The position numbers were made by a program, and so were the translations under genes. A stretch of 64,000 bases of DNA. Source: a bacterium (GTDB lineage Bacteria > BMS3Abin14). Below are positions 9,458 to 27,314 of the stretch, one piece after another (position 1 is the stretch's first letter; each line of letters starts with the position of its first letter). The stretch lies in NCBI GenBank assembly GCA_029210965.1, contig JARGFZ010000006.1, positions 1 through 64,000 of the forward strand. The letters are read 5' to 3'. The notes beneath the pieces were generated by a model. It was not told the origin of the DNA, searched no databases, and saw nothing but the letters and a program-made list of their open reading frames with translations.

Positions 9458-9940
9458 TTATAACTGCTTCACCTCTCCCCGCAAGGTACGTACCACAAGG
9501 AGCCCACTTTCAGTAGCAAATTCCACTGTTCTCCCCGCCGTACCCCCTACGTCCTGGGCAACAAGGCGGATGCCGAATTTGTCGAGGGCCTTTCGAGCTG
9601 CAAGGATATTCCTGGCACCAATGCACCTGTCTGATCCCATGAACTTACCGGCAAACATATCAGCGCCACCGGCTATCTTCGCAATGAGCCTGGAAGGCCC
9701 TATACCTCGGATCTCCATCTGCTGTACCATTGCTGCCACTGCAGAGTCAGCGAATTTCCCGGGTGCTTCATTATCATGAGCGCTGTAGGCATGAGGCAGC
9801 AGAACGTGTGCCATAGACCCCATAATAGCCTCTTTGGCATAACATGTGATGGCCACACACGAACCCAGACCATAAGTGACCAGTTTATGGGGTGATTCGG
9901 CGAACTTGAATTCAGTAATCCCCACTACGATGTGGTTCAT
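9458..9940 (-). CDS. cheD: Chemoreceptor glutamine deamidase
   Basis: 160 residues, the usual CheD length. The catalytic triad is visible: C28 in YGLGSCVAI, H45 in MAHVLLPH and T22. CheD deamidates (and demethylates) receptor glutamines and also binds and stimulates CheC. Its start overlaps the cheC stop by 4 bp (ATGA), so it is translationally coupled to its known partner. It is the last gene of the chemotaxis operon. Confidence 0.95.
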   Translation of the reverse strand: MNHIVVGITEFKFAESPHKLVTYGLGSCVAITCYAKEAIMGSMAHVLLPHAYSAHDNEAPGKFADSAVAAMVQQMEIRGIGPSRLIAKIAGGADMFAGKFMGSDRCIGARNILAARKALDKFGIRLVAQDVGGTAGRTVEFATESGLLVVRTLRGEVKQL

Positions 9941-10554
9941 CGACCAGTTCTCAACCTGCCGGCCGCTTCCAGAAACAGTTCGATCCCTGCGTTTCCCGGG
10001 ATCAGAACAGACTTTACCAGGCTGGCATCTTCCAGACCAGTCAGGTTGAAGGTCAATGTCGTCACTTCGTCGGACAAGGTTCCAACCTCACCCAATATCG
10101 CGTCTAAAATAGCGCCTGCCATGTCTTGAACCAGGAACGGTGGAAGGTTGACAACAACCCTTTCAGAAAAACTCCAAAAGACCGTTAGAAGCGACCCGGT
10201 GATTATGTTGCCGATCTCAGCAAATGCCGACAAGCGGAGATCACCCTCTGCCTGCCCTGACGACCCGAACAGCATCTCCTCAAGCTCCTTGATCCCTGCC
10301 TCGGGAAAAAGGAGAAGGGCGTTACCTTCAATATCCCCCTGGAACGGGACAAGAACACCGATGGCCGGAGCATCCAACCCCCCAAAAAGGGCTGGTATGT
10401 CGCTGAGTTTTACATTGGTAACCTCGGGGACACCGACACGGATCGGGATTTTCAGCAGACGGGACAGAGCATTGCCAGCCTGACCTGCGGCGATCGTCGC
10501 GATCTCTTCGACAGCTGCGACCTGTTCCCTTGACAAAAAGGGGGTCTTTCTCAT
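9937..10554 (-). CDS. cheC: CheY-P phosphatase CheC
   Basis: 205 residues of the CheC/FliY/CheX family, which dephosphorylates CheY-P. CheC has two pseudo-symmetric active sites of the form E-x2-N. The second is intact (E113-I-G-N116 in FAEIGNIITG). In the first, the asparagine is replaced by threonine (E17-I-A-T20), so only one site is likely to work. It overlaps cheD by 4 bp and begins 4 bp after cheA. Confidence 0.93.
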   Translation of the reverse strand: MRKTPFLSREQVAAVEEIATIAAGQAGNALSRLLKIPIRVGVPEVTNVKLSDIPALFGGLDAPAIGVLVPFQGDIEGNALLLFPEAGIKELEEMLFGSSGQAEGDLRLSAFAEIGNIITGSLLTVFWSFSERVVVNLPPFLVQDMAGAILDAILGEVGTLSDEVTTLTFNLTGLEDASLVKSVLIPGNAGIELFLEAAGRLRTGR

Positions 10555-10558
10555 CAGC

Positions 10559-12607
10559 CTAGAACAGGTTGCCCAGATCGAGGATCGGAACGATTCTACC
10601 GTCTCCCAGGACGGTCATGCCTGAATATCTCTTGAGATATTGGATAGGGTAACAAAGGGGTTTTACAACGATGTCCACCTGGCCGACAACGCTATCGACA
10701 ACCAGACCTACCGTCCTGTTGGTAGCCTCCACCAGGACAACATTGAACACAGATCGACCATCCGTACGCCGCTCGATCTTAAGGAGTTCCCCCAGATCGA
10801 ATACGGAGACCAGTTCCTCATCCAGGTTCAGGTACTGTCGGCCCTGGCTTTCATTGAGGTCCTCCCTGGCTACACGGATCGTCCGGGCCACCCTCGTGAT
10901 GGGAACGGCAAAGGTGTGATCGAGAAGAGAGACGAGAAGCATCTTTACAATAGCTACCGTCAGGGGCAACCTGAGTGTAAAGGTTGTTCCCTCGCCGGTA
11001 TGGCTTTCAATGGAAAGAGATCCTCCGAGACTATCCACTGTGGATTGGACTACGTCCATTCCAACACCCCGCCCGGAAACATCAGTAACTTCAGCTGCCG
11101 TGGAAAACCCCGGCCGGCACACAAGCATGACGGTTTCTTCATCGCTTATGATTTTTGCCTGATCGCGGGAAATAAGACCTTTCTCCACTGCCTTGGTTTT
11201 GATCGCCTCAAGGTCAATGCCCCTGCCGTCGTCAATAATCTCAACATAAACCATGTCTCTTTCGCGGAAAGCCCTGAGAACAATGCGTCCGGTCGCATCC
11301 TTGCCGGCGGCCCCACGTCCTTCAGTTTCTTCCAGGCCATGATCCACGGCGTTTCTGAGTATGTGGATGAGCGGGTCCCCCAGCTCTTCTAAAATAGCAC
11401 GGTCCAGTTCGATATCGGCCCCTATCACTTCAAGGGAAACCTTCTTCTTGCGCTTGAGGGCCAAATCCCGGACCACTCTTGGCAGACGCTGAGTGACCGT
11501 TTCCAGGGGCATCATCCGGACTTTCATGACCTCACTATGCAGGCCACTTATGAGATGATCCACCCTTGTGAGGACCTGGTCAACATCTCTGGACCCACTG
11601 CCCGTGAGGAGATCGTTCAAGCGACTCTGAGTAACGATGAGTTCTCCGACCAGGTTTATAAATGTGTCTAACAGGGCTGTACTGATACGTACCGATTTAG
11701 CGCTGCCAGGAGGTGAACCTGACTCTTTTTTGGACTTCACAGCAACCTGTTCCACCGGTTTGGAAACTTCATCAACACCCTTTTGGGGCTGGGCTATTTC
11801 GCTGTCAGGATCCAAAACTGATATCTGGCCCATTTCAGCCAAAGATTGGAGAGTCTTTAAAATTTCGTCCTTTTTGACACCGCCGACCCAGGCAGTGACA
11901 TGGTCTGTGTAATTGCCTGCCTTTATCTCTTCAACTGACGGATCCGTACGATGGAGCTGACCCAGGGATTCCAGTTTTTTAACTGCCAGGTAAGCCCGGG
12001 CTGCGGGCACAAGGCTGTCAGGAGCAATTTCGAACCTTACCTCCAGAGCGCCCTCCAGGTCAGGATGGCTCTCCAGCGATAAAGTTACTTCCCCAGGCCC
12101 AGGTTCAGGGTCGGGATCGGGCACATCCTCCGGCCTGTCACCCGCAACTTCAGCGGAAAGGGATGCGGACTCCGGTTTGGGATCAGGGTCGGATCGTTCT
12201 TCTTTTACAGCGGTGGCCTCCACCGTTCCCTGAGTTGCATTCAGGACCTTGAGCAGAAGCGAAGAGGTATCAGCCTCTTCGAGGTTCTTGTCCTGCTCCA
12301 CACCATCCACCATATTTTCCAAAGCATCGACACCTTCCAGGAGGATGTCAGTGACACTCGAAGAAATAGTCAGCTGCCCCTTACGGACCACATCCATCAT
12401 GTCCTCAAGGTGGTGGCTCAGTTCAGCGATCTTGGAGTATCCCATGGAAGCCGACATCCCCTTGACGGAATGCGCATGGCGGAACAGTTCATTGATGCTC
12501 TGTTCTGAAGCTGGTTCCTTTTCCAGAACGAGTATGCAGGTACTCATACCCTGGACATGCTCCCTGGCTTCGGAGATAAAAAGATCCCTGTATTTGGACA
12601 TGTCCAT
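10559..12607 (-). CDS. cheA: Chemotaxis histidine kinase
   Basis: About 682 residues from the ATG at 12607 (GGGAGG lies 13 bases upstream; an ATG two codons on is also possible). Order: Hpt domain with phospho-acceptor H46 in RHAHSVKG; an acidic linker (about 130-180); a P2-like segment; a P3 dimerisation helix pair; a HATPase domain with N-box HILRNAVDHGLEE, G1 DDGRGID and G2 GRGVGMDVV; and a C-terminal CheW-like domain. It phosphorylates CheY. An in-frame ATG at 12694 would add residues unlike CheA and is rejected. The 100 bp between cheY and this start looks non-coding. Confidence 0.95.
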   Translation of the reverse strand: MDMSKYRDLFISEAREHVQGMSTCILVLEKEPASEQSINELFRHAHSVKGMSASMGYSKIAELSHHLEDMMDVVRKGQLTISSSVTDILLEGVDALENMVDGVEQDKNLEEADTSSLLLKVLNATQGTVEATAVKEERSDPDPKPESASLSAEVAGDRPEDVPDPDPEPGPGEVTLSLESHPDLEGALEVRFEIAPDSLVPAARAYLAVKKLESLGQLHRTDPSVEEIKAGNYTDHVTAWVGGVKKDEILKTLQSLAEMGQISVLDPDSEIAQPQKGVDEVSKPVEQVAVKSKKESGSPPGSAKSVRISTALLDTFINLVGELIVTQSRLNDLLTGSGSRDVDQVLTRVDHLISGLHSEVMKVRMMPLETVTQRLPRVVRDLALKRKKKVSLEVIGADIELDRAILEELGDPLIHILRNAVDHGLEETEGRGAAGKDATGRIVLRAFRERDMVYVEIIDDGRGIDLEAIKTKAVEKGLISRDQAKIISDEETVMLVCRPGFSTAAEVTDVSGRGVGMDVVQSTVDSLGGSLSIESHTGEGTTFTLRLPLTVAIVKMLLVSLLDHTFAVPITRVARTIRVAREDLNESQGRQYLNLDEELVSVFDLGELLKIERRTDGRSVFNVVLVEATNRTVGLVVDSVVGQVDIVVKPLCYPIQYLKRYSGMTVLGDGRIVPILDLGNLF

Positions 12608-12707
12608 GGTGGTCAACGACCTCCCAAAACAGCAGCCTCTATCAAGGCGCACCTGGCCGACCGTGGGGCAAGTCCCCCCGGCGCGGTCCTTCACTCAACA
12701 GAAACGA

Positions 12708-13100
12708 TCAGCGGCCCCGGGTCTCATCCAGGATGCGGGTCACAACATCAAGGACCTTTTCGGGCTGGAACGGCTTGACTATGAAATCCTTCGCCCCGGC
12801 ATCCAACGCTTCCATGACAAGGCTGTCCTGACCAAGAGCGCTGCACATGATCACATTGGCTCCGGGGTCCAGACCCATGATCTCCTTGAGAGCTTCGATC
12901 CCGGTCATTTCGGGCATTACGATATCCATGGTCACAATGTCGGGATCATGCTCCTTGTACTTGTCCACTGCTTCAATGCCGTTTTCCGCCTCTGCCACTA
13001 CCTGGTAGTCCTCTTCCTTGTATTTTTTTCCGTTGAAGATCTCAGCGATCATGTTGCGCATAAACATGGCGTCATCAACGATCAAAACCTTAACTGCCAT
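12708..13100 (-). CDS. cheY: Chemotaxis response regulator CheY
   Basis: 130 residues, a single receiver domain with all key residues: D9/D10, phospho-acceptor D59 in TMDIVMPEMTG, and K109 in DFIVKPFQ. It is phosphorylated by CheA and should bind the flagellar switch or another motor. The ATG overlaps the cheW TGA by one base, and GGGGAGG lies just upstream. Confidence 0.96.
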   Translation of the reverse strand: MAVKVLIVDDAMFMRNMIAEIFNGKKYKEEDYQVVAEAENGIEAVDKYKEHDPDIVTMDIVMPEMTGIEALKEIMGLDPGANVIMCSALGQDSLVMEALDAGAKDFIVKPFQPEKVLDVVTRILDETRGR

Positions 13101-13594
13101 CAGCCCTCCCCTTTCGTGAACTCACTATCGATCCAAACCCGGAGTTTCTCAGGGTTGATCAGTGAAATGAGCCTGCCGTTGTCCCGAAAAACACCCTCAA
13201 TGATCTCCACCCCATGATCTTTAGTGTGCGCATCACGGGCCACTTCCTCCAATGTCACATAGGAGGTAAAACCGGTTGTTGTGTCAACATGAAGACCGAT
13301 ACCTCCGTGATCTGAAGTCAGGATGAGCAAAAGGCCTTCCTCCTGCGTATCTTCCAACCCCAGGATCCTTCCAAGGGATAGCACCGAGGCCAGGTTACCG
13401 TGAACGTTTATCACGCCCACCAGATAGGATGGGGCCAATGGAAGCGACGTGATCTCCGCAACCTTAAAGATCTCGGCCAGAGATTCGAGGGGTAGAGCAA
13501 AGTACTCCCTGCCTACAGCACACACTACAACTTCATACGCCGGAAGGTTCGGAACCTGCTCTGAGCCGGAGTCTGGGGGCAAAAGTCGGGCCAT
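13100..13594 (-). CDS. cheW: Chemotaxis coupling protein CheW
   Basis: 164 residues from the ATG at 13594. The frame stays open further upstream, but only through the 3' end of the receptor gene. It carries the CheW/SH3-like fold: YFALPLESLAEIFKVAEIT, the conserved GVINVHGNLASVLSLGRILGL block and a C-terminal LINPEKL. It links CheA to receptors. It starts 4 bp after the receptor stop and is coupled to cheY by a one-base overlap. Confidence 0.95.
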   Translation of the reverse strand: MARLLPPDSGSEQVPNLPAYEVVVCAVGREYFALPLESLAEIFKVAEITSLPLAPSYLVGVINVHGNLASVLSLGRILGLEDTQEEGLLLILTSDHGGIGLHVDTTTGFTSYVTLEEVARDAHTKDHGVEIIEGVFRDNGRLISLINPEKLRVWIDSEFTKGEG

Positions 13595-13598
13595 GGTA

Positions 13599-14858
13599 TC
13601 AGACCTTGAACTCCTCGGATAGCTTTCGCAGCTTATCTGACAGCGCGGTAAGGTCCTGAGCGGAAGCTGCCAGCTCTTCCATGGAAGCTGTCTGCTCCTC
13701 TGTTGCCGCCGACACTTCCTCCGTGGACGCGGCGTTGTCTTCGGCAACCTTTGAAACCTCGTCAATAATATCGGTTATATCTTTTGCAGCGGCACTTTGT
13801 GTCTCTGTGAGCTGCGATATTTCCTGGGCATGGGTGGTAGATTCCATAACTGCCCTGACGATCTCATCCAGTGATTCTCCCATGCTCTGAATAATATCCT
13901 GCCCTTCATCGAGCACACCGGTAACATCTTTCATGGAAACCAGAACCTGCTCGCTTTCATTCTGGATACGGCCGACTATTCCTGAGATCCTTTCGGCGAA
14001 CTGCTCCGTGTTGGCTGCCAGTTTCCGGATCTCCTCTGCCACAACAGCAAAGCCCCTCCCCGCCTCTCCGGCTCTGGCTGCCTCGATGGTGGCGTTAAGC
14101 GCGAGAAGGGTCGTCTGCTGGGCGACATTGGTGATAATGTCGACGATCTGACTGATCTCTTTACTGCTCTCTCCAAAGGACATGACCGAATCACCAGCCT
14201 TGGAAACGTTATCGAAAACCTGGCCTATCTTGGTGATCATGTTCTCCGATTGTTTTCTCCCTGCTTCAGCGGTAAGCCCGGCCTCTGATGAGACCTTTGC
14301 AGATTCCTGGCCTTTTTTCGCCACCGCCGCCAGGCTCTGGGCCATATGATGAATCGTGCTGGACATCCTCTCCACCTGACTGGCCTGAGTTTCTGCACCC
14401 TTGCTTATACCGTCAATGGCAGCGGCTATTTCCTCAGTTGAAGCATTCATCTCTTCAGCAGTGGCTGAAAGGGTCTGGGCCGAATCATGTACATCCTCGG
14501 AAGAGGTCTTGAGACCTTTCGCCAGAAGAGAGAGCCGCTGGACCATCACACGGAAAGCCTCCCTGAAATCGGTAATGTCATCCTCAAAATTCCTCCTCAT
14601 CGGCGTGAGATCCAGGGTAAGATCGCCCTCACTGATCCTCAAAGCCACATCTCTCATTTCCCGGATGTCACGTGTAATACCGTTGGCAAAAAAACTGCCA
14701 AGGCCAAGTCCCACGGCGATAGCCGTAAAACCCGCCCCCATTTCCTTCCAGGCTCCCTCCTTCACCCCAAGCAGATCGAAAATATAGGGAACAAAGATCA
14801 CTACGGCAACAACGAACAGGAATGCAAGGATCAGCTTGTATCTTATTTCCATTCTCAT
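13599..14858 (-). CDS. Chemoreceptor without a periplasmic domain
   Basis: 419 residues. Two transmembrane helices (about 8-29 and 40-58) are joined by only about 10 residues, so there is no periplasmic sensor. A HAMP domain follows (about 60-112), then a long coiled-coil signalling domain with the hairpin tip around [17 protein letters not shown]. Glutamate/alanine-rich helices contain likely methylation sites for CheR and deamidation sites for CheD. It should sense a membrane state, an intracellular cue or a partner protein. Being inside the che operon, it is probably the dedicated receptor of this CheA. Confidence 0.93.
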
Positions 14859-14898
14859 GGCAGGGGACTCCTTTCCCGCTAAATGAGCTCAAATGTAA

Positions 14899-15768
14899 CT
14901 ACAAATTATCTGACAGCGGCGATTCCCTTAATCGGTAAATACGCTCAGTGGGTGAGACGCTCTGAAAATAAAACCTGTTTTTTCCTATCAGAGTCTCAGC
15001 CTTTCCCAGCATGAGATAACCGCCATCGAAAAGGTTCCTGGAAAAACCCGAGATGATCTTCTCCTGGTTCTCCCTTTCAAAATAGATCAACAGGTTCCTG
15101 CAAACGATAAGACTGTGCATTGGGCCGGGGTTGTATTTCAGGATATCACCCGTGCGAAAGGTGACACATTCCCTGACCTCACTGCTGATACTGTAGCCTT
15201 TCTCCTCCTCCCTGAAAAATTCCTTTATATCCTCTTCTTCCAGATTCTTCAGGGACTCTCTGCTGTATATCCCCGTTTTGGCCCTTGCCAGAATGGCTCT
15301 GTCTACATCGGTGGCAAGAACATGAAAAGGGGTACGAATCCTGTGCCTCCTTTTGACTCGCAAAAGAGATATAGCCAGGCTGTAAGGTTCCTCTCCGCTT
15401 GAACACCCGGCACTCCAGACCTCAAAGGTACCATGGAGGCTGTGCTCTGCCATTACTCGAGGGAATATCATTTTCTCGAGATACTGAAATGCCGATGGGT
15501 TCCTGAAGAATTCAGTGACATTGATCGTCAGATACTGAAATAACTGTTCCAGCTCTTCAGGATCCCGGCTGAGAACCCGATAATAGACACCCAGGTCTTT
15601 GTAACCCCTGGAGCGCACTTTCAGGTAGATCCTCCGCAGGATGCACCGTTCCTTGTACGCCTCCAGGTCAAACCCCTTTTCCCGGACAAAGAGTTCCTTC
15701 AAGGCCTCAAAAGCCCAGGCATCCTTTTCAGGAAGGTGACCGATTTCCGAAGCCCTGACAGCTACCAT
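14899..15768 (-). CDS. cheR: Chemoreceptor methyltransferase CheR
   Basis: 289 residues: an N-terminal helical CheR domain (YLTINVTEFFRNPSAFQYL) and a SAM-binding methyltransferase domain with WSAGCSSGEEPYSLAI and later DILKYNPGP and CRNLLIYF. It methylates receptor glutamates. No cheB methylesterase is present in the window; CheD may partly fill that role. It is the first gene of the che operon, 40 bp before the receptor gene. Confidence 0.95.
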   Translation of the reverse strand: MVAVRASEIGHLPEKDAWAFEALKELFVREKGFDLEAYKERCILRRIYLKVRSRGYKDLGVYYRVLSRDPEELEQLFQYLTINVTEFFRNPSAFQYLEKMIFPRVMAEHSLHGTFEVWSAGCSSGEEPYSLAISLLRVKRRHRIRTPFHVLATDVDRAILARAKTGIYSRESLKNLEEEDIKEFFREEEKGYSISSEVRECVTFRTGDILKYNPGPMHSLIVCRNLLIYFERENQEKIISGFSRNLFDGGYLMLGKAETLIGKNRFYFQSVSPTERIYRLRESPLSDNL

Positions 15769-15990
15769 TGGGCAGCTTTCGTAACTTCTGAAGATTTATC
15801 CGTTTTTTGTATCATAGCGAATTTTAGGGGTCAACGACCAACGGTGACTGCGTCACCGTTCGAGGTTCCGGGTTCCGAGTTCCAGGTTTTAGGTTTCAGG
15901 GAAATACGATCTCATATCTCATATCTCAGAGGTAATCGCATAAAACTTTTCAGCTTTCTCCTGCGTTCTGCGTTCTGTCTCTACCAAACC
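15769..15990. repeat. Repeat-packed gap between cheR and the GAF kinase
   Basis: This 222-bp gap consists largely of short-period units: GGTTCCG/AGTTCCA (15865-15900), ATCTCAT (15908-15935), CTGCGTT (15960-15978) and the start of a TTTGATG family (15985-16000). A CTCTGGA heptamer array at 16015-16045 continues inside the kinase gene. The cheR promoter would have to lie here, but I cannot see one. Confidence 0.7.
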
Positions 15991-17673
15991 TCAAACATCA
16001 AACTCTTTCCTTCCCTCTGGACTCTGGACTTGGGACTCTGGACTCTCTGTTATAACCTTCCTCCAGGAGTCGAGGGACGGGAGGGTCACGATTACTTTAC
16101 AGCCATCCACATAAGTCTCATCGATCCTTATTGTTCCACGGTGTCCTGCCACGATGGCTTTTGCAATAGGCAGGCCCAGCCCGGTGCCCTCCGGTTTTTC
16201 TGTCATAATATCACCACCTTGTTCAAAACGATCAAAGATCCGGGTCACATCCTCACGGGGAACTCCGGAACCGGAATCCTCAACCGATACGAGAACTCCA
16301 CCTTCGCTGTTGCTCTGGGCCTTTATCCTGGTGTAGCCTCCCTTTGGCGTAAACTTCAACGCATTCTCCAGTAGTTTGTCAAAAACTTTTATCATCTTGG
16401 CCTGGTCGACCCAGATCAGGGGCAAACTGTCGGGAAGGTCGAGGCTCAGTTCGACCCCCTTGGATCCGAACCTGGGCCATTGTCCCCTTACCGATTCCTC
16501 CAGAAAATAGTGTAATTGTGCCTCCTGAAAATGGAAGGGCGCTGATCCGGTATCCAGCCTGAGCAAATCGGTACTGTCGTCGATGAGGCTGGATAAGCGG
16601 TTGGCGGCCTCCATGGCAACGCTGACTTTTTCCATATGAGAAGGTTCGCTCAGTGTGCTTCTTAACAGTTCGAGGTAACCGAGAATGATGGTGACCGGTG
16701 TTCTGTACTCATGGGACACATTAATGATGAAATCCGACTTTACCTGATCGACAACCTTGAGCTTCCCGTAGGCATCCTCCAGCTCCTCGGCTTTCCGCTC
16801 CAGGTTGTGATAAAGCCTTACCCGCTCGATACTCACGGAAATGTGGGTGGCGAATACAGACAGGATACGCAGGTCAAACTCATTCAGAGGACCGGATCGG
16901 CTTTTGTTGTTGGCGTTAAGAACACCAATAACACGGTCACCCACTTTGAGGGGAACACAGATGAGGGATTTGGTCGTGTACCGGTCGTGGCTCCTGACTT
17001 TTGCGAACCGTTCCTCCGCTTCCACATCCTTCAACAGAAGAGGCTCCCCGGACTGGGCGACGGAACCCGAAACACCTTTCCCTATCTCCATCCTCGATGT
17101 CTCTATGATCCTCTGGCTTAACCCCTTGGCTGCCCGGATCGTAAGGTAATTTTCCTTTTCGTCCAGGAGCATAATGGAGACAATGGCATACCCGAGATCA
17201 TCCGAAAGATGTTGGACGATCTTTTCGAGCACATCCTCGATGCTCAATTCGGGGCCAAGTTCCAGGGCGAGGTCCAGGAGCACGGAAGCTTCTCCGTATC
17301 TCTCCTCCATCTGGTGCCACATGGAAAAACCATCGCGGTATTTCAAGTGTTGATTCCCAGCCTCTAAAAGGATTTCATTGATCAGGCCGGGTCTCATTCC
17401 AGGGTGAAGGAACCCCATCACCCTTATCCCCAGGAGGTCATTGGGGTCTGTCTCTTGCGAGGATGCCATAAGAAGAATTTGCGGATGCAAGTCGATCCGC
17501 TCCTGCAAATACTCGTGACGATGCAACCTTTCCGGCATCGTTACCAGGACATCTGGAGGTTTGGCACCGGGAGTGCCAGGGGAAACTTCCCACCCCAACT
17601 GTCCCGCTGCTTCCGTAATGAGTTCCAGGTGGGCCTTGTCGACAAGGTCGATATGAATTTTAAGGGAAGTCAT
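15991..17673 (-). CDS. Histidine kinase with pseudo-receiver and GAF domains
   Basis: About 560 residues. Residues 1-110 have the strand/helix pattern of a receiver domain but lack the phospho-acceptor (DVLVTMPE where VLxDxxMP is expected), so I infer a pseudo-receiver. A GAF domain follows (about 135-290), then HisKA with H323 in VSHEYRTP and a HATPase with N-box LLENALKFTPKGG and GTGLGLPIAK. There are no transmembrane helices, so it is cytoplasmic. The start is ATG 17673, or GTG 17679 overlapping the upstream stop. The last 19 residues (ESPESQVQSPEGRKEFDV region) are encoded by two intergenic repeat families, including the stop codon. Confidence 0.9.
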   Translation of the reverse strand: MTSLKIHIDLVDKAHLELITEAAGQLGWEVSPGTPGAKPPDVLVTMPERLHRHEYLQERIDLHPQILLMASSQETDPNDLLGIRVMGFLHPGMRPGLINEILLEAGNQHLKYRDGFSMWHQMEERYGEASVLLDLALELGPELSIEDVLEKIVQHLSDDLGYAIVSIMLLDEKENYLTIRAAKGLSQRIIETSRMEIGKGVSGSVAQSGEPLLLKDVEAEERFAKVRSHDRYTTKSLICVPLKVGDRVIGVLNANNKSRSGPLNEFDLRILSVFATHISVSIERVRLYHNLERKAEELEDAYGKLKVVDQVKSDFIINVSHEYRTPVTIILGYLELLRSTLSEPSHMEKVSVAMEAANRLSSLIDDSTDLLRLDTGSAPFHFQEAQLHYFLEESVRGQWPRFGSKGVELSLDLPDSLPLIWVDQAKMIKVFDKLLENALKFTPKGGYTRIKAQSNSEGGVLVSVEDSGSGVPREDVTRIFDRFEQGGDIMTEKPEGTGLGLPIAKAIVAGHRGTIRIDETYVDGCKVIVTLPSLDSWRKVITESPESQVQSPEGRKEFDV

Positions 17674-17675
17674 GG

Positions 17676-18095
17676 TCACCCTGAAGCAAGATGCTTCTCA
17701 TGCTCCTTGGTAAGTGTCAGCAAAGTTTTTCTCGTGGTTTCCTTATCCAGGTCTCCAATAGAATTGAAAACCCAGGTTTTAACGGCAACGGGCCTTTCGT
17801 TGGATTGTACCCAATGGGCAATGGACTTTGCCTCTTTCCATGAAGCATCGTCACCGGAAGGGATCAGGATCAGGATACCATCCATCTGGACACCCCCCTC
17901 GAACAGCTTGATGGTCATATTCTGGAGCTTGCCCGAAACACCTGTTCCTACCACCTCCAGCGCCCCTCCTTTAACAGGGAGAACGACTTTCTCCCCACGC
18001 CCCTTGGGAGATAGTTCAAAGGTTCCGAATAGCCCGCCAAGGAAAGCCTGCCTGGCTTCCTCCACAGGTGAAAGAATCATGTACCGGATAATCAC
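17676..18095 (-). CDS. Putative degenerate Ras/MglA-like GTPase (P-loop lost)
   Basis: 139 residues with no recognised domain name. The central block GALEVVGTGVSGKLQNMT...GVQMDGILILIPSGDDASW...EAKSIAHWV lines up by eye with small bacterial GTPases of the MglA/SRPRB-like type around switch II (FGTPGQERF...GAxGxIxLVDSSDPxS...AkxI). The P-loop position reads SPVEEARQ instead of GxxxxGKT, and the NKxD specificity motif reads KTWV. If the alignment is right, this is a pseudo-GTPase unable to bind nucleotide normally. It lies between a REC-PATAN regulator (12 bp upstream) and the GAF kinase (4-bp overlap). The call is inferential; otherwise it is a hypothetical protein. Confidence 0.5.
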   Translation of the reverse strand: MIIRYMILSPVEEARQAFLGGLFGTFELSPKGRGEKVVLPVKGGALEVVGTGVSGKLQNMTIKLFEGGVQMDGILILIPSGDDASWKEAKSIAHWVQSNERPVAVKTWVFNSIGDLDKETTRKTLLTLTKEHEKHLASG

Positions 18096-18107
18096 ATCAA
18101 CACCTCG

Positions 18108-19085
18108 TCAGAGTTTTTCCAGGACTGTTCTTATCTTTCGAAGCAGATCGATTTTCATCGCCGCATCTGTTGGCCCGATGAGAAGTCCCTTGCTCAAGGC
18201 TTGGCTCGTAAGCGGATAGAAGCGGTATGGGGGAAACCCGGAAATATCCAAAGCCCAGATGATGTCTGCTCCACCTGAATAAGCCTTGACCACGTTTCTC
18301 AGCTCACCTGCAATATCGTCTGTATCATCTGCAGGTTGGAGGATCGTTTCCAATGGCGGCAGGCTCCGGAGCGATTCTTCCATCTCATCGGCAAGCCTGA
18401 CACCTTCCATGAGAAGTTCCTGGCTGCCGCTGTGCTCGATATTCGGTTCAATGGAAACTGCTTTCTGGTCCAGCTTGAACCGCCCCTCTTTCCAGGAGAG
18501 CATTGTGTAAAAAGCCTCGAGGCCCTCCCATTTCTCCGTCATCGCGTATACCGGGACCCCCAACTCGAAATATACACGGCCCGGGCCCGGTGAGGATTCC
18601 AGCAGAAGCATCCCTGTTTTTCTGCCCATTTCAATGAGTTGTATAACATCAACAAGATCCACTTCCTTTAAAAGTCCTTCCAGGCTGCCGAGTTCCTTCA
18701 TGTCTTTTATCTTCTTGGTGATGGAACGGACCTTGGCCCTGAGCTCCTTGATAGAGAACGGCTTGGTAATGTAATCATCCGCTCCCATTTCCAGACCCTC
18801 GACCCGTTCATCCACATCCTTCTTGGCACTCAGGAAAATAAAGGGGATGGAGGCTGTCTCGGGCCTGGATTTTATTTTCCTGTACAACCCATAACCATCC
18901 AGGCGGGGCATCATGATGTCAGAAAGGATAATGTGTGGTCTGAACTCCAGCGCCTTATCAACGGCATCCAATCCATCAACGGCCTCCAAAACTTCAAAAC
19001 CCTCCTCGAAAGCAAGACGCAGAAGATGCCTGATGTTCTCTTCGTCATCTACAATGAGAATTCTAATGCGTACTTCATCACCCAT
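18108..19085 (-). CDS. Response regulator with PATAN (DUF4388) domain
   Basis: 325 residues. An N-terminal receiver (D13/D14, phospho-acceptor D56 in LSDIMMPRLDG, K in DDYITKPF) is followed by a DUF4388/PATAN domain at about 130-230 (GSLEGLLKEVDLVDVIQLIEMGRKTGMLLLE, VYFELGVPVYA, FYTMLSWKEGRF). A C-terminal segment of about 90 residues is unassigned. PATAN domains act in protein-protein contacts, for example with type IV pilus or motility machinery in cyanobacteria. I chose the ATG at 19085 (GGGGAG six bases upstream); it overlaps the HD-GYP gene by 8 bp. Confidence 0.88.
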   Translation of the reverse strand: MGDEVRIRILIVDDEENIRHLLRLAFEEGFEVLEAVDGLDAVDKALEFRPHIILSDIMMPRLDGYGLYRKIKSRPETASIPFIFLSAKKDVDERVEGLEMGADDYITKPFSIKELRAKVRSITKKIKDMKELGSLEGLLKEVDLVDVIQLIEMGRKTGMLLLESSPGPGRVYFELGVPVYAMTEKWEGLEAFYTMLSWKEGRFKLDQKAVSIEPNIEHSGSQELLMEGVRLADEMEESLRSLPPLETILQPADDTDDIAGELRNVVKAYSGGADIIWALDISGFPPYRFYPLTSQALSKGLLIGPTDAAMKIDLLRKIRTVLEKL

Positions 19086-20670
19086 GGATGCTCCCCTCAA
19101 TGGCGCCGATAAAGGCTCCGACCACTTCAGGATCGAACTGACTACCTGCATTATTCTTTAGTTCGGCAAGCGCCTCCCCATGATTCAGCTTGACCCTGTA
19201 TGGGCGATCTGTAGTCATGGCATCGTAAGCATCGGCTACAGATATGATCCTTCCCACCAGGGGGATATCATTCCCTTCCAGCCCGAGAGGATAACCCCTG
19301 CCATCAAAGTGTTCATGGTGGTGGCGGATCCCCGGAACAATATCGACGAAGGGTTTGAATTTACCCAGGATCTGGGCACCGATCGATGGGTGTTCCTGCA
19401 TGGCCTGCATTTCGCTTTCACTCAAACGGCCCTGCTTGGTCAGGATGTGTTCCCTTACCCCGATCTTGCCGAAATCGTGAAGCTGTCCGGCGATTTTGAG
19501 CATGGTGATGAACTTCGAACTGAAATCCATGCCCTGGGCGGCCAACACAGCGTATTCGGCCACCCGCTGGGAGTGACCGTGGGTATAGGGATCCTTGGCG
19601 TCAACGGCCGAGGAAAGGGCTCCCAAGGTCGCAAACAGAAGATCAGCAAGCTCCTGATACAGCTGCATGGCGTGGAGGACAGAGGCGGCCTGGCTGGACA
19701 GCGCAAGTGCAAACTTCAACTCCCCGTCTCCAATCATCCCCTTCTTTTCCCACCCGAAAACGAGGAACCCCTCCCTGGAATTTCGAAGCCGGAAGGGGAC
19801 AACGAGAAGATCTCCTGTATTGGGTGCCACCTCAACATCCCGGAACCCGGGTCCCAGTATGAGTGACGGGCCTTGGCAGCCGCGGATTATTCCCAGGAGA
19901 AAGGGATCAGGACCTGATTCTTCAGGCCACGGCAGTTTGCCGCAGGCATCAAGCAGTTCAAGTTTGCCATCCACTTCCGCCTCGAAAATCATGAACAATC
20001 CCCACCTGGCGTTCAGCCTCTGAACACCCTTATCAAGGATGACCGCCAGAGCCTTCTGGTGACCACTATCCGGACTGAGACTTTCAGTTATGGCATAGAG
20101 GAACATGAGTTCCTCGTATTTCTGAAACAGGTACTCAGTGGTATCCTCGAGAGCGACGTGGGAGATCACCTTTTCCAAAAGCTGCTGCTGAATAAAACTC
20201 CCCAAAGTCTCGAGGCGGGAACGCATGAATACGGGAATCCCTGCTGCTGACGCAACCAGCCTGTCAATGTCATCCGGTGCTATCTCGGAGCCGATATCCC
20301 TGATATGCTTCTTATGCTCATCCGACAGCCCCTCAATGGCCGCCTGTCCCATTACAACAGTACCGAAATCAGTACCCTCGCGGGAAACAATGGGAATGAC
20401 GACCTCTGCCAACCGTGCATGGCACAGGTCAAACTCTGGTTTACCGCTTTGCATGGCCTTGAGTCTCAAGGAATCTGCGAAAGACTTGCATTTTGAAGCA
20501 CCCTCGCTTGAAGTCTTTAACTGCAGGCAGAAGGACGACTCCCCAACTATAATGTCCGGGAGGTCTGAACCTTGGGGAATATACCCCATGTACAGGCCCG
20601 TTATCCTGAAAAGTGACTGGAGAAAATCCTTCAGATCTTCTCTTGGCAGGGGATACCCAGGCTGCTTCAT
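19078..20670 (-). CDS. PocR-GAF-HD-GYP protein (c-di-GMP phosphodiesterase)
   Basis: 530 residues. A PocR-like sensory domain (about 20-165) has cysteines at C48, C61 and C83. A GAF domain follows (about 190-340), then a C-terminal HD-GYP domain with H398/D399 in LHDFGKIG, HHEHFDGRGYP (GYP at 459-461) and VADAYDAMTTDRPYR. HD-GYP enzymes hydrolyse cyclic di-GMP; all metal-binding motifs are present, so activity is likely. PocR domains bind small molecules such as hydrocarbons or diols. It is coupled to the upstream kinase gene by a TAATG junction. Confidence 0.92.
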   Translation of the reverse strand: MKQPGYPLPREDLKDFLQSLFRITGLYMGYIPQGSDLPDIIVGESSFCLQLKTSSEGASKCKSFADSLRLKAMQSGKPEFDLCHARLAEVVIPIVSREGTDFGTVVMGQAAIEGLSDEHKKHIRDIGSEIAPDDIDRLVASAAGIPVFMRSRLETLGSFIQQQLLEKVISHVALEDTTEYLFQKYEELMFLYAITESLSPDSGHQKALAVILDKGVQRLNARWGLFMIFEAEVDGKLELLDACGKLPWPEESGPDPFLLGIIRGCQGPSLILGPGFRDVEVAPNTGDLLVVPFRLRNSREGFLVFGWEKKGMIGDGELKFALALSSQAASVLHAMQLYQELADLLFATLGALSSAVDAKDPYTHGHSQRVAEYAVLAAQGMDFSSKFITMLKIAGQLHDFGKIGVREHILTKQGRLSESEMQAMQEHPSIGAQILGKFKPFVDIVPGIRHHHEHFDGRGYPLGLEGNDIPLVGRIISVADAYDAMTTDRPYRVKLNHGEALAELKNNAGSQFDPEVVGAFIGAIEGSIHG

Positions 20671-22727
20671 TATTGTACCTGTGTTCCCTCAGTCTTCATC
20701 GGTGCCTGCGCAGGCAGGGTAAAGAAAAGGACACTTCCACCACCCTCTGCAGGCTCGGCTCCTATAATTCCGCCGTTCATTTCAGCGAGCCTTTTACATA
20801 TTGGCAGACCAAGGCCGACCCCGTGGGTATCGACATCACTGAACAGCCGATGCTCCCCGTACTTTTCAAATATGGCATCCCTCTTGTCATCCGGCACACC
20901 GGGACCAAAATCCCTCACAAAAATCTCCTGTGCGTTTACTTGCCCTGGACGGGAGCAGACTCGGGCACCTATAACTATATCAGAGTCAGGTGGGCTGTAC
21001 TTGATGGCGTTGGCAACAAGCCTGTTTATAACATCTGCCACACTTTCCTTGTCCGCATGAACCTGTCCGAGCCCTTCGGCCACATCCGATTTAAGGGTGA
21101 GTCCCTTGGTCTGGGCAGCAGCCTGGTTGTTGATCATGGCGGTAAGGAGCGTATCGGAAATGGAGAAATCCTCGGGAACAACCCTGAAATCTGTAAGCTC
21201 TATCTTTGAGAGGCTGAGGAGGTCCTCCACTATTTCAGCGAGTTTGCCTGTCTCCTCGTTCATCACGTCCAGATACTCTCGCTGTCGGGGCGGGGCGCTG
21301 GAGTAGATATCATCCCACAACAGATCAAGAAAACCTTTCAAAGAGGTCAAGGGGCTTCTGAGATGGTTGGAGACGTTTTCGAGAAACTTGCTCTTGAGGT
21401 GATCCAGTTCATCCTCTGCCGACATGTCCCTGAGGAGGATGATGAGTCCGAGGGTCTGTTCCTCCTTCTCGTCCACAACAGCCACGCTGGCCACCAACGG
21501 AAAATTTTCCTTGATGGCACTGAAACGTACAGTCCATGTGGGGTTTTTTACACCAATACGCTGCTCCTCCAGTATACCGAAAGTATCCCGGGGTATATGG
21601 TCGAAAAGATGCTGCCCTTCAAGAGTCCCATCGACACCAAGGAACTGGAGGGCTAACGGATTGGCGTGGATGATCCGGTAGGACCAGTCGGTGACGAGAA
21701 CACCTTCCGCCATATTCCGAAGGATCGCTTCTACCCTGTTCTTTTCAAGCTCAAGAATAGCCAGCTGTCGATCCCTTTCCTGCAGGAGCTGCACGTTGTC
21801 GAGCAACACCGAGAGCTGAGATGAGATCATTTCCACAAGAACCTCGTCATCAGGGACAAAGAACTCCTTGCGGCTTGAAAAGAGAGTGATGCTGCCAAGG
21901 ACGCCGCTGGAAGAACGCAGAGCGATGGTAAACTCTGACGAAGATGCTTTTCTCGTGTTACCCCCCGTAAGCTCGGAATCCTCAATGAGCCTGATCTCGA
22001 GATCCCTTATGGCAGAGATCTCCACCCCCCTGTCAAGGGCAAGCATTTCACTGCCGCTTTTGATGACATTCTTCTTTGATACCTTCAGGGACTGATTCCG
22101 GTAGCGGATCGCAACGAGTTTCTCATTGGCGCCTGGAAGTACCGCGAAGATGGCACCCAGGTCGTAGTCAACAACCTGGCAGATGAGCATGAGAACATTC
22201 TGCAGGAGGGCATCGGGTCTGTCCAGGTACGTAAAGAGTTTGCCGGTCTCGTTGATGATAGTCATTTCCAGGAGCTTTCGCTCCAGGATATCGTCGGCCC
22301 TCCCTTTGAGAGTTTCGCTTGTCAACTCCTCAGGACTGACCGGTTTTATGGGGTCACGTTTTTCCTTGAGCAGAGACAAGATCGTCTCGATCAAGCTCTG
22401 TTCTTCTATTGGTTTTGTGATATAGGCATCAGCACCTACTTCCAGACCCCAGAAGCGGTCTTTCTGGGTATCCTTGGCGGTCATCATGACCACCGGAAGA
22501 GCCTTTAGTCGTTCATCGCTCCTGATAAGACGGCAGACCTGGTATCCGCTCATTTCAGGCATTATGATGTCCAGCAGAACAAGATCAGGAGGGTCTTCCC
22601 CTATGGCCTGCATGGCCTCGTGACCGTTCATCGCACGGTCAACTTCGTATCCCTCCCTGACCAGGATATCCTTGACCAGTTCCAGAATGAAGGGGCTGTC
22701 ATCTACTACGAGGATTCGGTGCCCCAT
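20670..22727 (-). CDS. REC-GAF-PAS sensor histidine kinase
   Basis: 685 residues in the order receiver (1-125, phospho-acceptor D53 in LLDIIMPEMSG), GAF (about 155-315), PAS (about 335-440), HisKA with H455 in NVSNHLRSPLTS, and HATPase with DFGPGVP and GVGLGLPICK. The H-box lacks the usual acidic residue after histidine (NHLRSP rather than SHELRTP), which may alter autokinase or phosphatase balance. There are no membrane segments. The N-terminal receiver without an output domain suggests a relay intermediate. It abuts the next kinase upstream (one-base overlap at 22727). Confidence 0.92.
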   Translation of the reverse strand: MGHRILVVDDSPFILELVKDILVREGYEVDRAMNGHEAMQAIGEDPPDLVLLDIIMPEMSGYQVCRLIRSDERLKALPVVMMTAKDTQKDRFWGLEVGADAYITKPIEEQSLIETILSLLKEKRDPIKPVSPEELTSETLKGRADDILERKLLEMTIINETGKLFTYLDRPDALLQNVLMLICQVVDYDLGAIFAVLPGANEKLVAIRYRNQSLKVSKKNVIKSGSEMLALDRGVEISAIRDLEIRLIEDSELTGGNTRKASSSEFTIALRSSSGVLGSITLFSSRKEFFVPDDEVLVEMISSQLSVLLDNVQLLQERDRQLAILELEKNRVEAILRNMAEGVLVTDWSYRIIHANPLALQFLGVDGTLEGQHLFDHIPRDTFGILEEQRIGVKNPTWTVRFSAIKENFPLVASVAVVDEKEEQTLGLIILLRDMSAEDELDHLKSKFLENVSNHLRSPLTSLKGFLDLLWDDIYSSAPPRQREYLDVMNEETGKLAEIVEDLLSLSKIELTDFRVVPEDFSISDTLLTAMINNQAAAQTKGLTLKSDVAEGLGQVHADKESVADVINRLVANAIKYSPPDSDIVIGARVCSRPGQVNAQEIFVRDFGPGVPDDKRDAIFEKYGEHRLFSDVDTHGVGLGLPICKRLAEMNGGIIGAEPAEGGGSVLFFTLPAQAPMKTEGTQVQ

Positions 22728-24229
22728 TAAATATCTCCCCTGTCCCTGGCGTCCATAACAAAAATAAAGCTGCTGCCGTGTCTTCCGTCGCGGCCCTCCA
22801 GGCGGATCGAACCGCCATGCAGATCCACGATCTTTCTGACGATGGCAAGCCCCAGTCCGCTGCCTTTACCGCGCCCGGATGAAATCCGTTCCCCCTGATG
22901 GTATTTCTCAAAGATAATTTCTCTTTCCCCGGGAGGAACACCAGGGCCATCGTCCAAAACTTCCACGAGAACCGATCCGTCTTCCCTGCGGACCACCGTT
23001 TCAACTTCGGAGCCTTCAGGGGTGAACTGGATGGCATTGGAAAGAAGGTTGACGAACACCTGAAGCAGCCTTCTACGGTCCGCAAGAACCTCCAGTGTAC
23101 CCGGGCCCTGTCCGCTGAAGGTCAGGGAAACTCCTTTCCGGGCAGCCAGTCCCTCCATACTTCTCACGGTATATGCGGCCAGTTCATCCAACTGGACCGC
23201 CTCCATGTGCAGCGCCATTTTTCCGGACTCCAGACGCCCAAGATCAAGAAGGTCGTTGATCAGACTGATCATCCTGTCGGCTTCAGAATCCAGGATCCCG
23301 AGATATTCCCGAAGTTTCTCCGGAGAATCGTAATCTCCTCCCAATAAAACCTCCACAAAACCTTTCATGGAGGTCAGGGGGGTCCTCAAATCATGGGAAA
23401 CGATGGCAAGAAACTCCTCCCGGTTCTTCTCCATGTCCCTGATCCCGGTAAGGTCCCTGAAGCCAAGAAGAATGCGGGATGGACCTGCTTCCCGCACCAT
23501 GGATAACCCCACAAGTTCTATCTGTTTGTTTTGACCTGCCTTGCCGGGGAGAGTCAGCAGAGATCTCAAAGGTTGTCCGGCCCCGGCTTTTACGGCAGCA
23601 ATAAAACCCTCCGGCATGGGAAACTCAGTTTTATGAAAGTCCGTGCCGGCCAGGGGTGCGTCGGAATTACTCAGGAGCTCCACAGCTTTCGGGTTAAGGT
23701 CGAAGATCCTTCCGCTGTCTTCCATGATGAGGAGCCCTTCGTCCAGGATGCGGAAAACCTCCTCCTTTTCCCGGCTCATTGTCTTCATCTCCTCGATACG
23801 AGCCTGCAGCTGATGTACCAGCTGTTGGTTGCGCATAGCCAATTGCTGCCTTTCGATGGCCCGTTCAACAGCGTACAGCAGGTCTTCTTTCACGATTGGT
23901 TTTTTAATGTAATCGTAGGCACCCGCCTTGAGAGCCTCTATGGCGCTTTCCATGCTGGCGTAGGCCGTGACCATGATAACAGCGACATCTGGATCCCTTT
24001 CCCTTACTCTGGCGAGCACCTCGGTTCCCATGATGTCCTGCAGCACGAGATCCAGCACTACCACATGAAACTCTCCCTCACTGCAGGCCTTGAGGGCCTC
24101 CTCTCCGGAACCCGCTATCTGAACCTGATAGCCCTCCTGAGTGAGAATGTTAGCCATCAGATCCTGAAAAAACTTCTCGTCATCTACAACGAGGATCGGG
24201 CCGAACTGTCTCTTGTCAACGTTTTGCAT
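22727..24229 (-). CDS. REC-PAS sensor histidine kinase
   Basis: 500 residues: receiver (D60 in VVLDLVLQDIMG, K110), a coiled-coil linker (about 125-155), a PAS domain (about 155-265), HisKA with a standard H-box (H279 in IVSHDLRTPLTS) and HATPase with DDGPGVPPGE and GSGLGLAIVRKI. It is cytoplasmic. Together with the two downstream kinases it forms a set of receiver-kinase proteins that could phosphorylate one another. Its start overlaps the end of lon by 14 bp, so its expression is tied to the protease gene. Confidence 0.92.
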   Translation of the reverse strand: MQNVDKRQFGPILVVDDEKFFQDLMANILTQEGYQVQIAGSGEEALKACSEGEFHVVVLDLVLQDIMGTEVLARVRERDPDVAVIMVTAYASMESAIEALKAGAYDYIKKPIVKEDLLYAVERAIERQQLAMRNQQLVHQLQARIEEMKTMSREKEEVFRILDEGLLIMEDSGRIFDLNPKAVELLSNSDAPLAGTDFHKTEFPMPEGFIAAVKAGAGQPLRSLLTLPGKAGQNKQIELVGLSMVREAGPSRILLGFRDLTGIRDMEKNREEFLAIVSHDLRTPLTSMKGFVEVLLGGDYDSPEKLREYLGILDSEADRMISLINDLLDLGRLESGKMALHMEAVQLDELAAYTVRSMEGLAARKGVSLTFSGQGPGTLEVLADRRRLLQVFVNLLSNAIQFTPEGSEVETVVRREDGSVLVEVLDDGPGVPPGEREIIFEKYHQGERISSGRGKGSGLGLAIVRKIVDLHGGSIRLEGRDGRHGSSFIFVMDARDRGDI

Positions 24230-26666: not shown

Positions 26667-26736
26667 TTGGCCGCCTCTCGGGACAGAATTTGATAAGTTC
26701 GTAATAAATCTCTACGAGCTTTCTGAAGGGCGGTCA

Positions 26737-26837
26737 TCACGCCTGTGGCGTGAGGGGCGTCATCCCCCGCCAACCTATGTGAATTCGCCCCGCGCCAATG
26801 GCGCGGTCCCACCCCAGTCCAGCCGGTGGCGGGACTG
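26737..26837. repeat. Cluster of three GC-rich hairpins between hsp20 and lon
   Basis: Three stems lie side by side: TCACGCC/GGCGTGA (26737-26753), CCGCGCC/GGCGCGG (26790-26806) and CAGTCC/GGACTG (26815-26837). The first stem's arms recur as a hairpin at about 57972 in another gap. A 71-codon open frame crosses this stretch but looks like repeat sequence, not a gene. Confidence 0.6.
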
Positions 26838-26867
26838 CCTGATGGACTTTTGGCGTACCCATGAAGT

Positions 26868-27314
26868 TTAATCATCAATCCTCACATCCACAGCTGTCTG
26901 GCGTCTTTCAGTGACTTTAGGAAGCTTTATTTTCAGCACTCCGTCAACCAAAGCCGCACGCACTCCTGACCCATCCACGCTTACCGGGACCTCAACGATC
27001 CTCCTGAAAACCCCGAACTCCCGCTCCAGGCAGAGATATCTGAGGCACTCGCTGTCACCACCGCTGTGTTTGAAACCCTGGATGCTCAGTCGATCCCTGT
27101 CGAGTCTGATGTTCAGTTCATCCCGGCTCATGCCCGGGACCTCCAGCTCAACATGAACTTCTACCTCATCCTCAAAGATGTCCATGGGCGGATGTGAAGT
27201 CTCCCCGGCCCAATCCGGGGGAGAAGGCATTTTCCCGGAAACCTGGTGAACCAGACGGCTGAATTTCGTTAAACTCCAGCCCGTCTCCCATATGAAATCT
27301 CTTTTTCTCTTCAT
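26868..27314 (-). CDS. Small heat-shock protein, Hsp20 family
   Basis: 148 residues with a central alpha-crystallin domain (about 45-140): VEVHVELEVPGMSRDELNIRLD, then FRRIVEVPVSVD, and the conserved ALVDGVLKIKLPK. It is an ATP-independent holdase that binds unfolding proteins. It overlaps the galU stop by one base and precedes lon, consistent with a protein-quality theme. No heat-shock promoter or operator is visible in front of it. Confidence 0.93.
   Translation of the reverse strand: MKRKRDFIWETGWSLTKFSRLVHQVSGKMPSPPDWAGETSHPPMDIFEDEVEVHVELEVPGMSRDELNIRLDRDRLSIQGFKHSGGDSECLRYLCLEREFGVFRRIVEVPVSVDGSGVRAALVDGVLKIKLPKVTERRQTAVDVRIDD

Follow-up and report, generated by a model that had tools for sequence, protein, structure and literature searches.

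A putative pseudo-GTPase next to a REC-PATAN response regulator in a bacterial chemosensory operon

Within the window, the 64,000-nucleotide stretch of DNA that was analysed, a short reading frame is located between the genes for a REC-PATAN (REC-DUF4388) response regulator and a GAF histidine kinase. A preliminary description, made from the letters of the sequence, had suggested that its 139-residue product is a GTPase-like protein devoid of nucleotide-binding motifs and a partner of the PATAN regulator. The questions raised by this locus are whether the frame is a functional gene, whether its product has the fold of a G domain, and what such a protein would do beside a PATAN regulator.

The gene and its chemosensory cluster

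The gene claimed for this place is real and functional, with its ends as first drawn; its strand is minus (Table 1). The frame starts with GTG at 18095, a GAGG stretch being located 7 bases upstream from this codon, and is closely packed between signalling genes, in agreement with the preliminary description: 12 bp separate it from the upstream REC-DUF4388 gene, its stop and the GTG start of the GAF kinase gene overlap by 4 bp, and the domains of the flanking genes were confirmed by Pfam. The true start of the REC-DUF4388 gene is possibly an in-frame ATG at 19085. On the same strand, the genes are aligned in the order HSP20, Lon, two REC-kinases, PocR-GAF-HD-GYP, REC-PATAN, the 139-residue protein, GAF kinase, CheR, MCP, CheW, CheY, CheA, CheX/CheC and CheD, indicating the location of the gene within a nearly complete chemosensory cluster.

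Table 1. Features of the locus (positions in the window)
Feature	Position	Strand	Basis
Putative pseudo-GTPase, 139 aa	17676..18095	minus	orthologues, AlphaFold2 fold, Foldseek, dN/dS
Degenerate P-loop (G1), residues 9-16, SPVEEARQ	18048..18071	minus	orthologue and joint alignments, model
Degenerate G3/switch II, residues 50-55, GTGVSG replacing GTPGQ	17931..17948	minus	alignments
Degenerate G4, residues 106-109, KTWV replacing NKxD	17769..17780	minus	alignments
C-terminal helix, residues 118-138, DKETTRKTLLTL...	17682..17744	minus	model and joint alignments
REC-DUF4388 (PATAN) response regulator, 347 aa, presumed partner	18108..19151	minus	Pfam Response_reg 1.6e-27, DUF4388 2.5e-23
GAF histidine kinase	15991..17679	minus	Pfam GAF, HisKA and HATPase
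PocR-GAF-HD-GYP protein, putative c-di-GMP phosphodiesterase, same operon	19078..20670	minus	
REC-GAF-PAS histidine kinase, same operon	20670..22727	minus	
REC-histidine kinase, same operon	22727..24229	minus	
CheR methyltransferase	14899..15768	minus	
Methyl-accepting chemotaxis protein (MCP)	13599..14858	minus	
CheW, about 164 aa	13100..13594	minus	CheW match of the L010 and L013 orthologues; start inferred from L010:4663-5157
CheY-like single receiver	12708..13100	minus	
CheA kinase	10559..12694	minus	
CheX/CheC-like phosphatase	9937..10554	minus	
CheD	9458..9940	minus	

Two other observations concern this cluster. The order HSP20-Lon-kinases-HD-GYP-REC-PATAN-che (window 9458-27314) is kept across the phylum, and the association of Lon and HSP20 with a chemosensory cluster appears unusual. 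The N-terminal 145 or so residues of the GAF kinase gave no Pfam match and are absent from the L013 orthologue; by eye, residues 1-145 (17245-17679, minus strand) resemble a degenerate receiver, with alternating strands and helices and no phosphoacceptor Asp. The counterparts of this kinase in L015 and L016 are also shorter.

The pseudo-GTPase gene was detected, as a single copy each, in 9 of the 12 genomes of this small phylum, one copy being a fragment at a contig end. The 8 full-length copies (the window and seven other genomes) are spread over six genera, and the orthologues are 42-79 % identical to the window copy. A survey of the neighbours of these copies showed that the REC-PATAN gene is located directly upstream in all 8 full loci, together with much of the cluster order. 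In G001 and G008, where the pseudo-GTPase gene is not present, the REC-PATAN gene exists and the contig stops at or just past it; G011 (71 % complete) carries neither the pseudo-GTPase gene nor a close REC-PATAN orthologue. Outside the phylum, the family profile gave no match in 374 genomes, and no homologue was found among viral contigs or in a first scan of genome contigs. The second scan of genome contigs returned four copies from the same phylum and one Pseudomonas match (L037); the latter, unrelated and picked up through the search pattern, was rejected as a homologue.

By the Nei-Gojobori method, dN/dS is about 0.2 overall, with a pairwise range of 0.14-0.34 where computable; synonymous sites are saturated in most pairs, and the sole unsaturated pair, G005/G010, gave a dN/dS of 0.21 at a dS of 0.38. 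The gene evolves under purifying selection. The orthologues found at this position in seven further genomes, the fragment in an eighth and this level of dN/dS altogether indicate a functional gene rather than a chance frame.

Predicted fold and degenerate G motifs

No match to the 139-residue protein was obtained with Pfam, NCBIfam, PHROGs or PADLOC, and the sequence searches of PDB yielded nothing beyond designed beta-trefoils and further spurious matches. The AlphaFold2 model, based on an alignment of the eight orthologues (pLDDT 89.1, pTM 0.84), is composed of beta1 (residues 2-8), alpha1 (12-23), beta2 (35-41), beta3 (44-51), alpha2 (57-66), beta4 (73-79), alpha3 (83-98), beta5 (104-110) and a C-terminal helix (118-138). 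The fold predicted by this model is of small-G-domain topology, including the beta2/beta3 hairpin typical of G domains, and it fits the six-stranded small G domain through beta5 and alpha5, with alpha4 and one strand being absent. With Foldseek, 47 PDB entries matched at E<1e-3. Small GTPases or other G domains, including Rheb, Rab, Ras, Rho and Arl as well as septin, EF-Tu and FeoB, make up nearly all of them, and one is a purine nucleoside phosphorylase. Ras and Rab proteins also stood at the head of the matches in a second Foldseek library (viral proteins), where most top matches were GTPases. The TM-scores lie in a moderate range (0.4-0.6) and the rmsd is high, pointing to a divergent and truncated G domain. 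The G-domain fold proposed in the preliminary description is supported by the structure prediction.

In an intact relative, modelled in the same way and matching MglA at 3.8e-12, the P-loop residues 10-15 are placed ahead of a helix starting at residue 16, and alpha4-beta6 are present. In the model of the pseudo-GTPase, helix alpha1 begins at residue 12 instead of 16, four residues early, from which a collapsed phosphate loop is predicted; a loop of this form would predict the absence of nucleotide binding.

The strings quoted in the preliminary description, such as SPVEEARQ at the P-loop and KTWV at the NKxD site, are all present. When the family was aligned jointly with intact GTPases of bacteria, SPVEEARQAFL stood opposite GPFAAGKTTFI with no gaps, so that SPVEEARQ is aligned with GPFAAGKT and Arg15 occupies the position of the Walker-A Lys. 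Pro10 and Arg15 are invariant in the 8 orthologues, and the family has lost the P-loop glycines along with the lysine and the Thr that binds magnesium. The stretches [S/C]PxxxxR and K[TS]WV are kept in 8/8 full-length orthologues; an intact P-loop, GxxxxGK[ST], was sought in these homologues and found in none (0/8). The stretch SPxxxxR...FGxxELxPxGxGE, corresponding to the old P-loop and switch I, is among the best-conserved parts of the family.

At G3, the letters PGQ are replaced by variable ones (GTGVSG and variants). The region after the P-loop had been described as kept from GTPases, which is correct for the beta3/alpha2/beta4 pattern and incorrect for the PGQ of G3. At G4, K[TS]WV is found in place of NKxD, with K106, W108 and V109 being invariant; of the two joint alignments, one places KTWV beside NKxD. 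For the G5 region, no counterpart exists. The switch I region is shortened by about 20 residues, and about 25 residues including alpha4 and one strand are gone. The two joint alignments conflict with respect to the last remaining strand, which is beta5 in one and beta6 in the other. The C-terminal helix that follows is the counterpart of alpha5 (NKESVKHVLLEL) of the intact relatives.

Probable kinship with PATAN-linked GTPases

A sequence of the conservon (CvnD) type served as bait, and the comparisons were made with the retrieved sequences only. With this bait, intact GTPases were found in several other families; within the phylum, no intact CvnD-type GTPase was detected at E<1e-4, and intact MglA genes are present. 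The PATAN-linked CvnD-type GTPases are presumably COG2229-like. In L081-L086 and L088, an intact GTPase gene is located directly after a DUF4388 gene, the spacing ranging from a 4 bp overlap to a 68 bp gap, and the DUF4388 domain was confirmed by Pfam in L081, L082, L083, L084 and L086. A natural single-chain fusion of receiver-like, DUF4388 and GTPase parts was also identified (L098:517-1992 and L099:1492-2967), and the GTPase of the L098 fusion keeps the P-loop (GLPTSGKS) and has lost PGQ.

Several related loci were noted in parallel. The L098 and L099 fusion genes are followed by a second DUF4388 gene, and apparently represent a half-degenerate relative outside the phylum. Receiver-like proteins in L087 (476-1501), L090 (491-1498) and L093 (445-1497) overlap or adjoin the GTPase genes that follow; their middle regions, unrecognised by Pfam, are possibly divergent PATAN domains. 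In the genome of the window, contig 13 encodes a 536-aa MglA with a long, acidic and repetitive C-terminal extension (L071:11939-13549), a few kb from a DUF4388 gene, and a separate canonical MglA is encoded on contig 48.

By hhalign, the pseudo-GTPase family was aligned with PATAN-linked GTPases at E 6e-4 to 1.5e-3 and with MglA at E 6e-3 to 0.025, as compared with 0.12-0.45 for 10 decoy families from the operon and 0.69 for a reversed control. Of 200 column-shuffled profiles, 0-1 scored as high as the observed one, and the profile score was no better with a more complete CvnD alignment. When the family profile was run over 1,951 ORFs, the only non-orthologue matches were intact PATAN-linked GTPases (E 0.015 and 0.13); one further match was rejected as an artefact selected by the search pattern. 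Judged by sequence, the homology to any GTPase is marginal; homology is likely when the weak sequence signal, the fold and the gene position are taken together.

The MglA-like kinship suggested in the preliminary description holds as a weak similarity to GTPases, the comparison favouring CvnD-type (Group 2 MglA-like) GTPases over MglA proper as the nearest intact kin. The most likely ancestors of the pseudo-GTPase are GTPases of the CvnD type, which in other phyla are partnered with PATAN (DUF4388) proteins. MglA of Groups 1 and 5 have also been reported near PATAN genes (PMC4316618), and therefore the gene slot alone is insufficient to fix descent from the CvnD type.

Proposed role and known systems

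Based on these observations, we can propose a role for the protein, which is probably a class-i pseudo-GTPase, derived from the CvnD type and bound to REC-PATAN as a fixed, nucleotide-independent adaptor. In this class assignment, the G-domain fold is predicted and not solved, and the G motifs are lost in 8/8 orthologues. As a small bacterial G domain that, according to the model, would bind no nucleotide, the protein would stay docked on the REC-PATAN regulator encoded just upstream, as an intact GTPase would in one nucleotide state, and would serve as a nucleotide-independent adaptor or stabiliser of the regulator. The on/off information would no longer be provided by GTP, as it once was; its source would be the receiver, phosphorylated by CheA or an operon kinase. 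The partnership proposed in the preliminary description is supported by the adjacency in 8/8 full loci, by the intact relatives in the same slot elsewhere and by the natural fusion; the complex is a predicted one. The fold apparently being kept, the G motifs lost and the gene under selection beside REC-PATAN, it is suggested that a former switch is now a fixed protein connector.

At the output end, the REC-PATAN/pseudo-G complex would act on a surface machine, the most plausible candidates being the type IV pilus and the MglA polarity apparatus. This output is favoured because the phylum is without a flagellar switch: FliM was detected in 0/12 genomes in a search that included positive controls. 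PilB-like ATPases were found in 12/12 genomes, seven of them above the curated PilB cut-off; the best match in the genome of the window (596 bits) is under this cut-off, and thus the canonical pilus ATPase is only putative there. Cyanobacterial PATAN response regulators relay chemosensory or photosensory signals to type IV pili, PixE through PilB1 (PMC7690835). We infer the loss of nucleotide binding, a physical complex with REC-PATAN and the pilus output. As a broader and tentative proposal, the whole phylum may share a chemosensory output module whose response regulator has acquired a former Ras-like GTPase as an obligate subunit free of nucleotide, with receiver phosphorylation taking over from the GTP cycle.

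Other explanations were considered. The pseudo-GTPase is unlikely to be derived from MglA proper and to act as a decoy or competitor of intact MglA, for instance by holding MglB-like or other MglA partners: intact MglA genes do exist in the same genomes, the MglA profile also beats its shuffles (0/200), and MglA of Groups 1 and 5 sometimes adjoin PATAN genes (PMC4316618), but hhalign prefers the CvnD type about 4-fold or more, the C-terminal DKETxRKxLLxL helix fits the CvnD-type alpha5, and the family profile over 1,951 ORFs found PATAN-linked GTPases and not MglA. We give an equally low probability to a rebuilt pocket still binding a nucleotide or another small ligand, which would make the protein a new kind of switch and not a fixed adaptor. 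The cluster of invariant R4, R15, E27, P30, G32, G34 and E35 could form the site for such a ligand, and few parts of the family are as well conserved as the old P-loop/switch I stretch; strong conservation is, however, equally well explained by a protein-binding surface, the model with alpha1 starting at residue 12 would leave no room for a phosphate loop, and the Walker lysine, the Ser/Thr ligand of magnesium and G4 are all lost.

Considerably less probable is a degenerate receiver (CheY-like) or another Rossmann-like domain merely resembling a G domain, even though CheY and Ras have a common general topology (PMC5593906) and the operon is rich in receivers. Receivers are all-parallel (beta-alpha)5 folds of five parallel strands, whereas the model has the beta2/beta3 hairpin, and not one receiver is among the top 50 PDB Foldseek matches; on these grounds a receiver-like fold was rejected. 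In addition, the 139-residue protein has no Pfam Response_reg match, and the REC-containing families of the operon itself score at the decoy level in hhalign. The loss of every catalytic motif might also be taken for a decaying remnant without function, but this is highly improbable, given a single copy at a fixed position, dN/dS of about 0.2 and reading frames free of stop codons and frameshifts in eight orthologues over six genera; a decaying pseudogene, contradicted by purifying selection, was rejected.

If the pseudo-GTPase is bound to the PATAN regulator, the docking and switching roles of the PATAN-GTPase pair would be separated, and a natural nucleotide-free case would be available for learning what the PATAN domain recognises. 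The location of PATAN genes near MglA-type GTPases is already known (Wuichet and Sogaard-Andersen 2014, PMC4316618, citing Makarova 2006). In that 2014 survey of prokaryotic small GTPases, motif-less G domains of less than 150 aa were dropped as likely truncations (PMC4316618), and families of this kind would thus escape notice; the pseudo-GTPase family indicates that at least one G domain of this short, motif-less sort is encoded by a conserved gene. In the literature searched, no case was found of a PATAN-linked GTPase being replaced by a bacterial G domain that is conserved and motif-less, and no stand-alone bacterial pseudo-GTPase was named, CheY being cited for fold resemblance only. If the reading as an obligate subunit is true, this would be, as far as the literature searched shows, the first stand-alone bacterial class-i pseudo-GTPase described.

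The known class-i pseudo-GTPases, p190RhoGAP pG1/pG2, CENP-M and fungal dynein LIC, are eukaryotic (PMC5593906, PMC4359372), whereas the present candidate is bacterial, stands alone as a protein and is encoded in a chemosensory operon, its lack of nucleotide being predicted. MglA of Myxococcus and Thermus is similar in its bacterial small-G-domain fold and in being connected with chemosensory systems and with type IV pili (PMC4316618, PMC11580455). In contrast, MglA binds GTP, pairs with MglB and is about 195 aa long, as compared with 139 aa and no G motifs for the pseudo-GTPase, and no MglB-like gene was seen beside the gene for the latter. The cyanobacterial PixE, PixG and LsiR resemble the present system in combining a REC and PATAN regulator, chemosensory or photosensory input and a link to type IV pili, and the available part of the source on them mentions no pseudo-GTPase partner (PMC7690835). 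The PATAN-linked CvnD-type GTPases differ in keeping GxxxxGK[ST], TTVAxD, PGQ, NKxD-like motifs and alpha4-beta6, all of which the pseudo-GTPase family has lost; the two have in common the slot directly 3' of the DUF4388 gene, a similar beta3-alpha2-beta4-alpha3 pattern, the alpha5 motif and the core of the predicted fold.
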